From Cyanobium sp. N.Huapi 1H5 (GTDB taxonomy: Bacteria > Cyanobacteriota > Cyanobacteriia > PCC-6307 > Cyanobiaceae), in the NCBI RefSeq assembly GCF_024345535.1, contig NZ_JAGQBH010000001.1, positions 682,001 to 746,000 of the forward strand: a stretch of 64,000 nt of DNA. Reading direction: 5' to 3'. The position numbers and the translations under genes are program-made. Position 1 is the first letter of the stretch, and every line of letters begins with the position of its first letter. Of this stretch, positions 27,127-33,156 are shown one piece after another. The notes beneath the pieces were generated by a model. It did no database searches, was not told the DNA's origin, and saw only the letters and a list, made by a program, of their open reading frames with translations.

Positions 27127-27233
27127 GTTGGGAAAGGGGCGGGCTACCGCGCCTGCAGCCTGTTCTCGAGGAGCTACTTGGCCCTAAGGTTTGCACTGCG
27201 CGGCGGTTAACCTGAGTTGAGGAGGTGTCTTTA

Positions 27234-27449
27234 ATGTCCAGACAGTTTGATGTCGTCGTCGAAAGGGATGCAGAAGGTTTCTTCGTGGCAACCGTCCCGG
27301 CACTGCCCGGTTGTCATACGCAGGCCCAATCCTTGGATCAATTAATGGAGCGAGTCAAGGAGGCTATTGAGCTCTGCCTTGAAGTCGCCGGTACCGCCCC
27401 TGAGTCGCTTGACTTCGTAGGAGTGCAGCGCGTTACCGTTGAGGTGTGA
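27234..27449 (+). CDS. hicB: HicB-family antitoxin
   Basis: The 71-residue protein has the HicB partial RNase-H-like fold: 'FDVVVERDAEGFFVATVPAL', then 'PGCHTQAQSLDQLMERVKEA'. It should neutralise the HicA toxin encoded directly downstream. The ATG at 27234 is preceded by GAGGAG at an 8-base spacing, better than the GTG at 27225. It lacks a clear C-terminal DNA-binding domain, as in short HicB types. Base composition is less GC-rich than thiC. Confidence 0.9.
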   Translation: MSRQFDVVVERDAEGFFVATVPALPGCHTQAQSLDQLMERVKEAIELCLEVAGTAPESLDFVGVQRVTVEV

Positions 27450-27670
27450 CGAGATATTCTGCGGTTTCAGGAAAGGCTCTCATCACAGCCTTGAAAGAGA
27501 TTGGCTTTGAAGAAATCAGGGTGAAGGGTAGTCACCATTTTCTGAGGCACCCAGATGGAAGGGCGACGGTTGTGCCCGTTCATTCCAATGAAACGTTGGG
27601 GCCCGGCCTTCTGGCAAGCATTCTTCGTGATGTCAAGCTCACAAGAGCCAGGCTGCAAGAGCTTCTGTAA
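27446..27670 (+). CDS. hicA: HicA-family mRNA interferase toxin
   Basis: A 74-residue HicA/YcfA-type protein with a double-stranded RNA-binding-like fold. 'SGKALITALKEIGFEEIRVK' is followed by the catalytic His region 'GSHHFLRHPDG' and 'VVPVHSNETLGPGLLASIL'. HicA cleaves mRNA and stops growth unless bound by HicB. Its GTG start overlaps the hicB stop (GTGA). The antitoxin-first order is the reverse of the E. coli locus but common in this family. Confidence 0.92.
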   Translation: MTRYSAVSGKALITALKEIGFEEIRVKGSHHFLRHPDGRATVVPVHSNETLGPGLLASILRDVKLTRARLQELL

Positions 27671-28625: not shown

Positions 28626-29741
28626 ATGGCTTCCAACGCTCCCTTCGCCCTGGCGGCCGCCGCCGGCGGTGCGCCGCTGCTGCTGCGGCAGCTGTTTGAC
28701 GCCGAGACCAGCACCTTCACCTACCTGCTGGCGGATGTGGCCTCCCGGCAGGGGGTGCTGATCGATTCGGTGTACGAGCAGCATCCGCGCGATCTCTCCC
28801 TGATCCGGGAGCTGGGCATCCAGCTGGTCGCCAGTCTCGACACCCACGTGCATGCCGACCACGTGACCGGCAGCTGGCGACTGCATCGGGCCACCGGCTG
28901 CTCCATCGCCCTGGCCGCCGTCGCCGGGGCGGAGAACGTGACCCTGCCCCTGCGCCATGGCGATCGGGTGAGCTTCGGCGGCCGCCATCTGGAGGTGCGC
29001 GCCACCCCCGGCCACACCGATGGTTGCCTCAGCGTGGTGCTCGATGACCACAGCGTGGCTTTCACCGGTGACGCCCTGCTGGTGCGGGGCTGCGGTCGCT
29101 GCGACTTCCAGCAGGGGGATGCCTCTACCCTGTACCACTCGATCACCGAGCAGCTCCTCTCCCTGCCCGACCACTGCCTGCTCTACCCGGCCCACGATTA
29201 CAGCGGCCGCGCAGTGAGTTCGGTGGCCGAGGAGAAGGCCTACAACGCCCGGCTCGGGGGCGAGGCCGACGAGCGCGACTTCGTGGGCTACATGGAGAAC
29301 CTGCACCTCCCCCACCCCAACCGGATCTCCGTGGCCCTGCCGGCCAACCTGCGCTCAGGCCGGCCCGCCGACGGTGGCCTGGAGGAGGCGGACGACTGGG
29401 CCCCGATCGAGCGCAGCTATGCCGGCCTGCCCGAACTGACGGCCGACTGGGTGGCCGACCACCGCGAGGCCCTGACGCTGGTGGACGTGCGTTCCGAAGC
29501 GGAGGTGCAGGGCCCGGATGGTCGCATCCCGGGCAGCTTGCTGATTCCCCTGCCCGAGTTGCAGATCCGGGCCGACGAGATCCCCACGAATCGTCCCACG
29601 GTGGTGCTTTGCCACTCCGGCAGCCGCTCCGCCCTGGCGACCCAACAGCTACAGAAGAAGGGGCTCACACGCGTGGCCAACATGCGCGGCGGTCTGCGGG
29701 CCTGGAAGGCGCAGGGGCTGCCGCTGGAGCATCCCGCGTGA
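28626..29741 (+). CDS. Persulfide dioxygenase-like metallo-beta-lactamase fused to rhodanese
   Basis: The 371-residue protein joins an ETHE1/Blh-like metallo-beta-lactamase domain (~1-250) to a rhodanese domain (~270-371). Metal motifs are 'DTHVHADHVTGS', 'ATPGHTDG', 'FTGDALLVRGCGRCDFQ' and 'LYPAHDYSGR'. The rhodanese loop 'VVLCHSGSRSA' keeps the active Cys. ETHE1-type enzymes oxidise glutathione persulfide to sulfite with O2, and the rhodanese part passes sulfane sulfur. With the two YeeE/YedE halves it forms a sulfide/persulfide handling operon. No ArsR/BigR-type regulator gene is beside it. Confidence 0.9.
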   Translation: MASNAPFALAAAAGGAPLLLRQLFDAETSTFTYLLADVASRQGVLIDSVYEQHPRDLSLIRELGIQLVASLDTHVHADHVTGSWRLHRATGCSIALAAVAGAENVTLPLRHGDRVSFGGRHLEVRATPGHTDGCLSVVLDDHSVAFTGDALLVRGCGRCDFQQGDASTLYHSITEQLLSLPDHCLLYPAHDYSGRAVSSVAEEKAYNARLGGEADERDFVGYMENLHLPHPNRISVALPANLRSGRPADGGLEEADDWAPIERSYAGLPELTADWVADHREALTLVDVRSEAEVQGPDGRIPGSLLIPLPELQIRADEIPTNRPTVVLCHSGSRSALATQQLQKKGLTRVANMRGGLRAWKAQGLPLEHPA

Positions 29742-29959
29742 TTCACAACATTGCGCTCTGCTGTAGCCGTGGACACAGGTGGTTCACGGACGCTTTAACC
29801 GCAGCTGGGGTTGGCGTTCCTACTTAGAGTGGCGTTGTGGGTCAAGGTTTTAAGAGGCTGGTTGCTGTGAACTCAGTTGTCTCATCAGGAATGTACCTGC
29901 CATCTGGGGATGGTTCACGGAACCTCCTAAGAACAAGTTAGACGTCAGAGGAGAAGCTT
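29742..29959. other. Non-coding gap with a 7-base integron-like core site
   Basis: This 218-base gap separates the sulfur operon from the nuclease-like gene and marks a drop in GC content. TGGTTCACGGA occurs twice (29780-29790, 29911-29921). GTTAGAC at 29937-29943 fits the GTTRRRY crossover core of integron recombination sites, and the bases before it (CCTAAGAACAA) recall attI-type sequence, though that match could be chance. GAGGAGAAG at 29948-29956 is the ribosome site of the next gene. I see no gene here. Confidence 0.45.
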
Positions 29960-31198
29960 GTGGCTCGGGAAGACTACTTGTTCACGGGGGCTGATTGGCA
30001 TTCAGTTGATCGGCACCAGCGCCAGCAAATGGTCGCAGAGATCGAGAAGGTCGACCCTGATCGCCTACTGAATACCTCTGTAGACGATTTGGCGCTCTAC
30101 TTCTCTGAGAAGTACAAGATCGACGTTCCGGTTCTTGACGAAGAGAACCTGACGGTCGATCAGCGAGAGAAGCAGATTGACGTCAGCAGGGACCGGAACC
30201 GGCACATCTCAGACCGAAGCAGACCGTTCTACATCACCGGGTCGGAAATCGAAGTTGAGATCCCTTTCACCGGCGAGGCAGAGGCCTTCAAGATCCAGCC
30301 GAATCCGTACACACTGAGTCCGCCTAGGGCAAGCGTGCGTGGCAACCTACTGACGTTCGCGATCGCAGGAACAAACCTTGAGGCAGCGGAGGTGCGGGCA
30401 GAGATAGAAAGGACCGTTCGAGAGGTCCAATCGTATCTGACGAATCTTCGAAACAACGTGGCCGGATTGAATGGGCAACTTCAGGGCGAGGCTCGCACTG
30501 CGATTGAGGCGCGACGCAACAAGCTACTTGCAAACCGCAATACTGTTGCGTCGCTCGGCTTTAAGATGAAGGAGAGGCAGAACGCTCAGAAGACATATGT
30601 TCCGGCGGAGGTGCGGAAGAAGATTTCCCCTGTTATGCCTCCCGCGAGTTCTGCGCCGTACAAGCCGGAGCCCACGCTGGGCCAGAACGACTATGAGCAC
30701 ATTCTTGGTGTCATGCAAGGCATGACACAAGTTATGGAACTGAGCCCCTCCGCATTTCATGACGTTGACGAAGAAGCTTTGCGATCGCATTTCCTCGTTC
30801 AACTCAACGGGCACTACCAAGGCCAAGCTACTGGAGAGACTTTCAACTACGAAGGCAAAACGGACATTCTTATTCGCTCGGAAGGCCGGAACATCTTCAT
30901 CGCCGAGTGCAAGTTCTGGTCGGGACCTAAGAAGCTTGCGGAGACTATCGACCAGCTCCTTGGCTACAGCTCCTGGAGAGACACAAAAACAGCGGTGGTG
31001 GTGTTCAATCGGAACCGCGATTTCTCAAAGGTGTTGGCGGCAATTCCGGACGCGGTCCGTGCGCACCCGCAATGCAAGAAGGACTTGCCAGGGTCGACCG
31101 AGACAATCTTCCGATACCTGTTTGCTAATCGAGATGACAGAAATCGCGAGCTGTACCTGACTGTAATGGCCTTCGACGTACCAACACCGCGGCCGTGA
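29960..31198 (+). CDS. Uncharacterised protein with C-terminal PD-(D/E)XK nuclease-like domain
   Basis: A 412-residue soluble protein. The C-terminal third has the core of a restriction-endonuclease fold: 'GKTDILIRSEGRNIFIAECK' gives D-x(n)-E-x-K, followed by 'GYSSWRDTKTAVVVFNRN', where a Gln-rich helix ('IDQLLGYSS') matches the usual after-motif helix. The N-terminal two thirds (acidic, with helix ~155-190) match nothing I know. The start is GTG at 29960 with a strong GAGGAG site. Codon use is less GC-rich than the flanks. The gene is bounded by a GTTAGAC core upstream and an attC-like hairpin 1 base after its stop. A defence or DNA-processing role is possible but unproven. Confidence 0.75.
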   Translation: MAREDYLFTGADWHSVDRHQRQQMVAEIEKVDPDRLLNTSVDDLALYFSEKYKIDVPVLDEENLTVDQREKQIDVSRDRNRHISDRSRPFYITGSEIEVEIPFTGEAEAFKIQPNPYTLSPPRASVRGNLLTFAIAGTNLEAAEVRAEIERTVREVQSYLTNLRNNVAGLNGQLQGEARTAIEARRNKLLANRNTVASLGFKMKERQNAQKTYVPAEVRKKISPVMPPASSAPYKPEPTLGQNDYEHILGVMQGMTQVMELSPSAFHDVDEEALRSHFLVQLNGHYQGQATGETFNYEGKTDILIRSEGRNIFIAECKFWSGPKKLAETIDQLLGYSSWRDTKTAVVVFNRNRDFSKVLAAIPDAVRAHPQCKKDLPGSTETIFRYLFANRDDRNRELYLTVMAFDVPTPRP

Positions 31199-31199
31199 C

Positions 31200-31257
31200 G
31201 TCTAGCAGGACGTTCCAGGCGGCGGCCTACGGCCGCGCCTGAACTCCAACGTTGATG
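31200..31257 (+). repeat. attC-like recombination site (integron cassette end)
   Basis: A 58-base imperfect palindrome begins right after the stop codon. GTTCCAGGCGGCGGCC (31212-31227) pairs with GGCCGCGCCTGAAC (31231-31244) through a TAC loop, with two unpaired bases on the left strand only, as in folded attC sites with extrahelical bases. The outer boxes are GTCTAGC (31200-31206) and GTTGATG (31251-31257), degenerate versions of RYYYAAC and GTTRRRY. Length, layout and position resemble short attC sites of mobile integrons. The degenerate boxes suggest a weak or decayed site. Confidence 0.62.
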
Positions 31258-31337
31258 AATTCAAATGAAAACCAAGCAAGTAGAATGTGTCATGAGTAGA
31301 GTCCAAAGTAGAGACTAGCCTACGGCGCACGACTAAG

Positions 31338-32084
31338 ATGCAACCATCAGAATCCAAGATCGCGCTCCTGATTGACGCTGACAATGCTCCAGCTGCCAAG
31401 ATCTCGGCAATCGTATCCGAAATCGCAAAATATGGAATTGCCAATATACGCAAGGCCTATGGCAACTGGAAGAGCCCGACATTGAGATCATGGGAAGAGT
31501 GCTTGCAGGAGTATGCGATTTGCCCAGTCCAGCAATTTGACCTCACCAAGGGCAAGAACGCCACTGACGCAGCGATGATCATCGATGCCATGGACTTGCT
31601 CTATACCCAGAAGCTGGACGCCTTTGCGATTGTTTCGAGCGACAGCGACTTCACTCCTCTTGTGATGAGAATCCTGACTAGCGGATTGAAAGTCTACGGC
31701 TTTGGTGAAAAGAAGACCCCGTTGCCTTTTGTTTACGCCTGCTCGACCTTCTTGTACCTGGAGACGATCGACCAGGCGATGGCCTCAACTGAGCTTTCTA
31801 TTCCATGGGTGGGAATCAAGAAGACTGGCAAGGAGTTGAAGCAAGATACAAGGCTTATCAATTTGTTGCGGAGTGCTGTGTCCAGTGCTGCGGATGACGA
31901 CGGGTGGTCAAATCTTGCTCCGGTGGGGACGCACATCGCCAATCAAACCTCCTTTGACCCACGTAACTACGGCTATGCAAAGCTCAGTGGATTGTTTGAG
32001 GCGATTGACTTGTTCGAGACGCAGCGAAGAAACAAGGCTGTCTATGTACGAAGCAAGCAGAAAAACGGCCATCCTCAAAAGTGA
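31338..32084 (+). CDS. NYN-domain nuclease-like protein with C-terminal OST-HTH/LOTUS-like region
   Basis: The 248-residue protein opens with a NYN (PIN-like) domain: 'IALLIDADNAPAAKISAIV' with the first acidic pair, 'DLTKGKNATDAAMIIDAMDL' and 'FAIVSSDSDFTPLVMRI', which place four Asp residues for metal binding. The C-terminal ~80 residues ('LINLLRSAVSSAADDDGWSN', 'FDPRNYGYAKLSGLFEAI') look like an OST-HTH/LOTUS RNA-binding domain. Such proteins are usually predicted RNases. The GC content is low compared with the flanks. It lies 81 bases behind the attC-like site. Confidence 0.87.
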   Translation: MQPSESKIALLIDADNAPAAKISAIVSEIAKYGIANIRKAYGNWKSPTLRSWEECLQEYAICPVQQFDLTKGKNATDAAMIIDAMDLLYTQKLDAFAIVSSDSDFTPLVMRILTSGLKVYGFGEKKTPLPFVYACSTFLYLETIDQAMASTELSIPWVGIKKTGKELKQDTRLINLLRSAVSSAADDDGWSNLAPVGTHIANQTSFDPRNYGYAKLSGLFEAIDLFETQRRNKAVYVRSKQKNGHPQK

Positions 32085-32118
32085 AGGGTCCGAAAGCCTC
32101 CAATGATGAGGCTCACTT
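32079..32118. terminator. Hairpin between convergent genes
   Basis: AGCCTC (32095-32100) and GAGGCT (32108-32113) form a 6-base stem with a 7-base loop, extended by AAGTG/CACTT after an internal loop. It lies between the ends of the NYN gene and the leftward HNH gene and may end both transcripts. No T-run follows, so the call is modest. Confidence 0.35.
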
Positions 32119-33156
32119 CTTGTGATATCTCACCTTCTGCCCCTCCCGCTCACTCTGGAAGCGCTGCAGCCGGTGGGTCAACGTCCGTAGCCGTTTCATG
32201 TCGCGCGAATTGACCGGATCGAAAAGATCACCCCGTGCCGTTTCGATGAACACCAGTACATCCTTCGGGGTACAGGGGCCGCTTTTCCAGCCATGAAACT
32301 CACGATGCAGATCGGGCACCAGCACCAAGATGTTCTCCGGCAGGTCGGCCAGGTCCGGTCGGCTTCGGCGGTCGAACAGATGGTGGCCGTCGAGGTCGAT
32401 CTTCTTGTGCACCGCCGCTTTTTTGCCGGTGATTTCGCAGCGATGGCCGGCCGCCGACTTGGCGCGCTTGATCGCCCGGTTCACCCCATCGGTGAGGTAG
32501 CGGATCTCGGAGTTGAAGCAGGCTTCCACCACATCGCCCACGGCTTCGATCCAGGCCTGACGCGTTTTGGTGATGCGGCTGTTGACCCGCATGTCGCGGG
32601 CCACACGGGCGATGCCCCGCTGGCTGATCAGCACCTGCCGCTCCTCGTTCTCCAGGAAATCCTTATTGAGCTCAAGGGCTTCTTCCCCCTCCTCCGTACC
32701 AGCGGTGCGCAGCCGCTCCCATGAGTTGGACAGGCCCTTGTAGTTGGTCTGCAGGATCCCCACCGTGGTTTTGCGGCTCACGAAGGCCAGATCGCCCCGG
32801 ATCTCCAGAGTGCCGCCGGCCTCGATGAACTCCTGGGTGATCCGCCGTGACACCAACAGTTGCTTGCGCTTCTGCTTCACGTTGAACAGCCGCTCACGGA
32901 ACCAACCCAGCACGCCCGTCTTCTCGGTGGCTTCGATGTAGCGGGCCAGGGCCTCCACTCCCTCCTCGCTGAAGCGCCGGGGGCGCCGCCCATTGGCGCC
33001 GGCCACGGCGGGGCCGGCGTACTCGAAATGCTCGCCCTCCACCAGCTCCCATTCGTCGTCGGCTTTGGCATCGAACGCCTCGACGATGTTGTAGAGGATG
33101 TCAATCCGTTTCCCGAGAATCCTGGCCGTTTCCTGGGCCGTCAAAAAGTCGCGCAT
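32113..33156 (-). CDS. HNH-endonuclease-like protein, partner of J-domain protein
   Basis: The 347-residue protein begins with a possible helix-turn-helix/excisionase-like region ('FLTAQETARILGKRIDILYN'), has a basic middle part, and ends with an HNH-like nuclease domain at ~235-300: 'HRCEITGKK', 'IDLDGHHLFDRRSRPDLAD', 'LPENILVLVPDLHREFHGW'. The His pair and the later Asn and His fit a beta-beta-alpha metal finger. It lies 4 bases after the J-domain gene, so the two form an operon. I know no described system with this pair; DNA cleavage in defence or a mobile-element function are both possible. Confidence 0.72.
   Translation of the reverse strand: MRDFLTAQETARILGKRIDILYNIVEAFDAKADDEWELVEGEHFEYAGPAVAGANGRRPRRFSEEGVEALARYIEATEKTGVLGWFRERLFNVKQKRKQLLVSRRITQEFIEAGGTLEIRGDLAFVSRKTTVGILQTNYKGLSNSWERLRTAGTEEGEEALELNKDFLENEERQVLISQRGIARVARDMRVNSRITKTRQAWIEAVGDVVEACFNSEIRYLTDGVNRAIKRAKSAAGHRCEITGKKAAVHKKIDLDGHHLFDRRSRPDLADLPENILVLVPDLHREFHGWKSGPCTPKDVLVFIETARGDLFDPVNSRDMKRLRTLTHRLQRFQSEREGQKVRYHKK

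Follow-up and report, generated by a model that had tools for sequence, protein, structure and literature searches.

The window analysed here is a stretch of 64,000 nucleotides (C1:682001-746000) from Cyanobium sp. N.Huapi 1H5, whose psaA/psaB and RuBisCO small subunit genes agree with the cyanobacterial host recognised in the original prediction. On its forward strand, a chromosomal gene encoding a protein with metallo-beta-lactamase and rhodanese domains (28626-29741; Pfam Lactamase_B, Rhodanese) is followed by a region homologous to integron attI sites (29764-29943), by a mobile integron cassette of 1314 bp (29938-31251), outside which the rhodanese gene lies, and by a second cassette position (31252-32121) with an NYN-LOTUS gene (31338-32084; Pfam NYN, OST-HTH). 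The cassette encodes one protein of 412 aa, the candidate phage-defence protein PDC-S54 (29960-31198), and ends in an attC site (31200-31257 in its linear form). As had been noticed from the letters alone, the cassette is less GC-rich than its surroundings (0.553 versus 0.684 for the whole window); nowhere in the 64 kb is GC content lower than in the cassette zone, the part that also holds the NYN gene (0.498). Further upstream, between ThiC and the rhodanese cluster, inspection of the reading frames by eye suggested a possible HicB/HicA-like antitoxin-toxin pair at 27225-27670.

An attC site consists of the cores R'' (RYYYAAC) and R' (GTTRRRY), pairing arms, and extrahelical bases on one arm. 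The predicted cassette layout proved correct: GTTAGAC (29937-29943) lies 16 nt upstream of the GTG start codon (29960), the TGA stop codon (31196-31198) is separated by 1 nt from an attC-like hairpin that begins at 31200, and extra bases occur on one side only, as single extrahelical C's in the 5' arm (GTCTAGC-A-GGA-c-GTT-c-CAGGCG ... CGCCTG-AAC-TCC-AAC-GTTGATG, extrahelical bases in lower case). DNA folding of 31198-31262 gave z-scores of -3.6 on the + strand and -3.8 on the - strand, and shuffled sequences folded as well in 0 of 200 cases (+ strand) and 1 of 200 cases (- strand). The site has the pairing arms and one-sided extrahelical bases of an attC, with R'' (GTCTAGC) one mismatch from RYYYAAC. 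The linear R', GTTGATG, is a poor fit to GTTRRRY, and its part beyond G31251 is the neighbour's. This misfit is expected if the right-hand core belongs to the neighbour, since rejoining the cassette ends in silico restores GTTAGAC, which fits the R' consensus. In the rejoined site, 10 of 11 positions pair between GTTAGACGTCA and TGACGTCTAGC, and folding of the bottom strand gives a single closed hairpin of -24.0 kcal/mol. An excised cassette circle would carry TGACGTCTAGC...AACGTTAGACGTCA.

A covariance model (R1) built from 24 other attC sites, with the focal one left out (90.7% of alignment cells paired; 17 of 22 pairs changed on both sides; 0 shuffles equal), returned 31200-31256 as the top match in 2.7 kb (21.4 bits, E = 3e-4 unfiltered), the next-best match reaching 9.6 bits; the attC identity proposed for the hairpin is thereby upheld. 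This score is modest and is not convincing by itself (E = 0.022 when 201 kb are searched), as expected because the right-hand core comes from the target site. Likewise, a plain scan for RYYYAAC/GTTRRRY, which gave many false matches in GC-rich DNA, missed the focal attC because in linear form its right core is that of the next unit. An Rfam scan of 29.7-32.3 kb returned no match.

Comparative evidence is decisive for the mobility of the cassette. DNA of the gammaproteobacterium Alcanivorax limicola (locus L093) is 89.7% identical over exactly window positions 29937-31253, and nothing outside this interval matches; the match runs from GTT to GTT and ends on both sides there. The Alcanivorax protein shares 91% identity with the PDC-S54 cassette gene product. 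In Alcanivorax, the neighbours of the cassette are other genes with a clear attC 3' of them, and no integrase above the TIGR02249 cut-off is present in that genome. The gene is absent in 39 relatives of the host, which together with the Alcanivorax unit with identical ends establishes the cassette origin that had been proposed. Among more distant PDC-S54 homologues, in other bacterial groups, several are flanked by attC or attC-like cores. As a discrete GTT-to-GTT unit with one gene followed by an attC, 29938-31251 is a genuine integron gene cassette, which would be excised and integrated by the integron integrase IntI. It is also a clear example of how a candidate phage-defence gene crosses phyla as a single cassette.

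The label PDC denotes a candidate in PADLOC. The likeness of the cassette gene to PADLOC PDC-S54 is a full-length match (545 bits over residues 1-408); the difference is that the gene is carried here as an integron cassette. In the C-terminal part of the protein, D302...E316-C-K318 is invariant across 37 homologues, a motif that fits a PD-(D/E)XK nuclease. The AlphaFold model consists of a long helix and a C-terminal alpha/beta domain (mean pLDDT 81, pTM 0.48) and has no fold match at E <= 0.001 among solved structures. A sequence search of the PDB found no relative of PDC-S54, and a literature search found no paper naming it. The putative anti-phage function is suggested by the family name.

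In integrons in general, a circular cassette folded at its attC is joined by IntI to attI between the G and the TT of the GTT core. The original prediction, right about the attC and the cassette layout, missed that the upstream DNA is an attI without its integrase gene (intI), common to eleven species. Positions 29764-29943 are collinear with nucleotides 1-180 after the intI stop codon in this genome and in related genomes of the genus (alignment scores 50-76, versus shuffled maxima of ~31), and thus represent an attI whose intI is missing. This orphan attI, also apparent in a multiple alignment, extends from a TAG at 29764, which coincides with the intI stop codon, to GTTAGAC. It contains an upstream block, GTGGTTCACGGACGCTTTAACCGC (29779-29802), found by alignment 164 nt upstream of the point where the core match ends, and a core, TGGTTCACGGAACCTCCTAAGAACAA followed by GTTAGAC (29911-29943), delimited by a match to the attI-core model (R2) and by the limit of homology in relatives. 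The model match (G000:C1:711911-711942) scores 31.5 bits with the focal site in the training set. Two blocks are conserved among attI sites, GTGGTTCACGGACCCG...AACCAC past the stop codon and GTGGTTCACGGAACCNNCCAANAANNAGTTRGRC at the crossover, and the recombination point lies between G29937 and T29938. The region is thus homologous to recognised attI sites, and cassettes would enter at its GTT. It adjoins no intI, either in the window or in the relatives' loci (L080-L090), and a tblastn search of IntI against these orphan-attI loci gave nothing convincing. No sigma-70-like promoter was seen in the orphan attI. The 195-bp interval from the rhodanese gene to GTTAGAC is ~81-86% conserved in close congeners, and the left-flank DNA on the rhodanese side is alignable in 10 of 11 relatives. 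None of the sampled intI loci lies beside ThiC, rhodanese, HNH or RfbF, and the state before the loss was not found among them.

The cassette had been described as lacking an integrase, which is true of the locus and untrue of the genome, where one complete and one truncated IntI are encoded. The window locus does not form a complete integron; one is present at C1:542458-555384, with intI, attI and an attC array. Its full-length intI (C1:542458-543393) is followed on the 3' side by attC sites from 544694 to 555384, and a very similar attI core lies beside it. This IntI scores 451.6 bits against TIGR02249 (cut-off 265), is full length, and aligns over residues 29-337, tyrosine-recombinase motifs included, to the solved IntI4 (2a3v). 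The truncated intI is at C1:318324. The cassette lies ~168 kb from the intact intI, which adjoins purF in a locus syntenic in six species; thus, the intI locus and the orphan-attI locus are both old. In one relative (G017), the IntI (L026, on G017:C14) shares 99.7% protein identity with that of the host, whereas the flanking chromosomal DNA at the thi locus is ~92% identical.

Eleven species keep attI at the window locus without intI, and what follows it varies. In 8 relatives homology ends at 29939-29943 with other cargo beyond; two more retain only part of the region, and in G060 the match ends at 29924. Behind attI lie a 402-aa protein in G017, proteins of 122 aa and 257 aa in G022, a 497-aa glycosyltransferase in G008, DUF1254/1214 in G004, HEPN in G012, and FRG/PDC-S15, AriAB and PIN7 in G006. 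The NYN-LOTUS unit has no recognisable attC. However, homology to the window begins again at 32122-32125 in five relatives (G012, G060, G006, G002 and G013), immediately past an attC-like end, and the NYN gene therefore also lies in the cassette zone. The NYN region is common to G017 and G022 from 31282/31291 onward, so that the window and these two relatives have the NYN gene in common and differ in their first cassettes. Judged from these arrangements, units at the attI end would be new and distal ones old, the polarity expected of insertion at attI. Ten of the eleven species carry an integrase above the curated TIGR02249 cut-off elsewhere in the genome (G060 was left out of this search). 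The differences in cargo could partly reflect homologous recombination between the conserved flanks, with whole arrays moving between strains.

The explanation that is very probably correct is that the PDC-S54 cassette occupies the first position at an orphan attI whose intI was lost ancestrally, with IntI supplied in trans. A chromosomal platform would have lost its own intI before the genus diverged into species, but kept its other parts in place. The cassette would have arrived as a circle bearing its own attC and would have been joined by IntI at the G/TT boundary of attI, leaving its attC at the 3' end with a right core contributed by the former neighbour, the NYN gene. IntI presumably acts in trans, because no intI is present here in any relative examined, yet the contents keep changing; the enzyme would most likely be the intact purF-linked IntI, 168 kb away, and the platform may still be active at present.

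Loci of this kind appear throughout the genus. A 33-nt attI-core model, trained on some orphan sites with the focal one included, found matches in 37 of 42 genomes, often several per genome. In the genomes that were also searched for intI, 60 cores reach at least 25 bits; a full intI precedes 9 of them, a truncated one 6, and no intI the other 45, although many relatives are draft assemblies and some 'orphans' near contig ends may have been severed from an intI. G022, which is a single contig, has five orphan attI sites and one full intI. Where a full intI is present it lies directly 5' of the core at a constant 148-154 nt, and at most of 40 sampled sites the distance between the core and the upstream block, which is outside the core model, is 153-165 nt. 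The 64 attC matches around the 40 sampled loci share the attI strand without exception, and with three exceptions they lie downstream. A full-scoring intI is encoded elsewhere in 20 of the 23 orphan-bearing genomes. The host genome itself has a second orphan attI at C8:68660, followed after 5.6 kb by an attC, and a weak third one at C1:278518 ahead of three attC sites. Restriction enzymes, methyltransferases, Avs2, a match to pAgo-TIR and HicAB/BrnA toxin-antitoxin genes are among the cargo at orphan sites. A broader interpretation, towards which the balance tilts somewhat, is that of a distributed integron, in which one or a few IntI enzymes would serve many dispersed orphan attI platforms, each with its own cassettes, often of defence or toxin-antitoxin genes.

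At six loci (L183, L208, L212, L213, L214 and L215), the intI remnants abutting attI are C-terminal pieces of ~33-165 aa with the 5' part missing, which suggests one-sided decay or the spread of a segment comprising the 3' part of intI and attI. A 2.5-kb element encoding a 315-aa XerC-like tyrosine recombinase and an IS91-like (Y2) transposase starts exactly at the attI GTT (GTTGAACTAAGCCGCT...). Its two copies in G022 (L186 and L029, after the attI cores at C1:1985107 and 2303732) are 99.8% identical, a related copy occurs in G060 (L187), and G061 (L201) retains the two ends only (~313 bp). Its features suggest a mobile element that targets attI.

Alternatively, the locus could be a static relic, its cassettes acquired while intI was still present and the array frozen once intI was lost. 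Loss of the integrase with surviving attC sites is known in Treponema phagedenis (PMC3607928), and truncated intI copies adjoin several attI sites in the genus. However, the DNA between the rhodanese stop codon and attI is alignable in ten relatives that keep the rhodanese gene, so that the loss of intI looks ancestral, and first cassettes nevertheless differ between species, including the three with a common distal NYN gene; a frozen array is therefore unlikely.

It is even less probable, and to a marked degree, that IntI captured one cassette off target at an ordinary genomic GTT (attG) and thereby created a single-attC locus (SALIN). Insertion of this type is documented (PMC12901181, PMC12444791) and would suit a cassette with one clear attC, but the ~180 bp upstream are homologous to intI-adjacent attI, rather than a GTT alone, insertion recurs at the same point in eight further species, and the arrays of several relatives at the locus comprise multiple cassettes. 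The plain attG reading was dropped on account of the attI homology upstream of the cassette. Finally, a chance arrangement of an ordinary horizontally acquired gene and a transcription terminator can practically be discarded: a strong GC-rich hairpin past the stop codon of a low-GC gene would be in keeping with it, but the exact GTT-to-GTT unit in Alcanivorax refutes it, no terminator-like T run follows the hairpin, and the attC covariance model matches.

In descriptions of integrons, a single intI has a single attI beside it, and arrays without intI are usually taken for relics. In Treponema integrons, intI faces attI, and their integrase clusters with one from a Synechococcus (PMC3607928). 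The IntI family found here is the same as in this clade of sedentary chromosomal integrons (Treponema, Synechococcus, Chlorobium and Blastopirellula), and the complete integron at C1:542458-555384 has the same arrangement, with attI past the 3' end of intI and cassettes read away from it. The window locus differs in that attI and cassettes are present without intI, and in that several such attI sites occur per genome. It resembles the T. phagedenis remnant in having an attC array at its ancestral place after loss of intI; that array, however, was called static in a genome with no intI (PMC3607928), whereas here intI is present elsewhere and the contents differ between species. With attG insertion (PMC12901181) it shares a single cassette away from intI and an IntI presumably acting in trans, but its target is homologous to attI over the full length and is reused in many species.

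Cyanobacterial integrons and attC cassettes without intI are already known (PMC8352920, PMC9024848). A literature search that fell short of many subscription papers turned up no account of genomes with several conserved attI sites lacking an integrase, and among the papers listed none had the phrase 'multiple attI'. Loci with one attC and no neighbouring intI are classed as SALIN and those with at least two as CALIN, both being counted from attC and intI. Formally, the window locus is a SALIN, with one attC and no intI within the window. It shares with CALIN/SALIN (PMC9024848, PMC12690207) attC-bearing cassettes that no intI adjoins, and differs from them in keeping its attI and in having IntI encoded elsewhere in the genome. 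Since these classes are counted from attC and intI, orphan-attI loci would be filed as CALIN/SALIN with their attI unseen. Thus, a supposedly dead class may be live, given that the contents of orphan attI sites differ between close relatives, and attI, rather than attC, may be what should be searched for.
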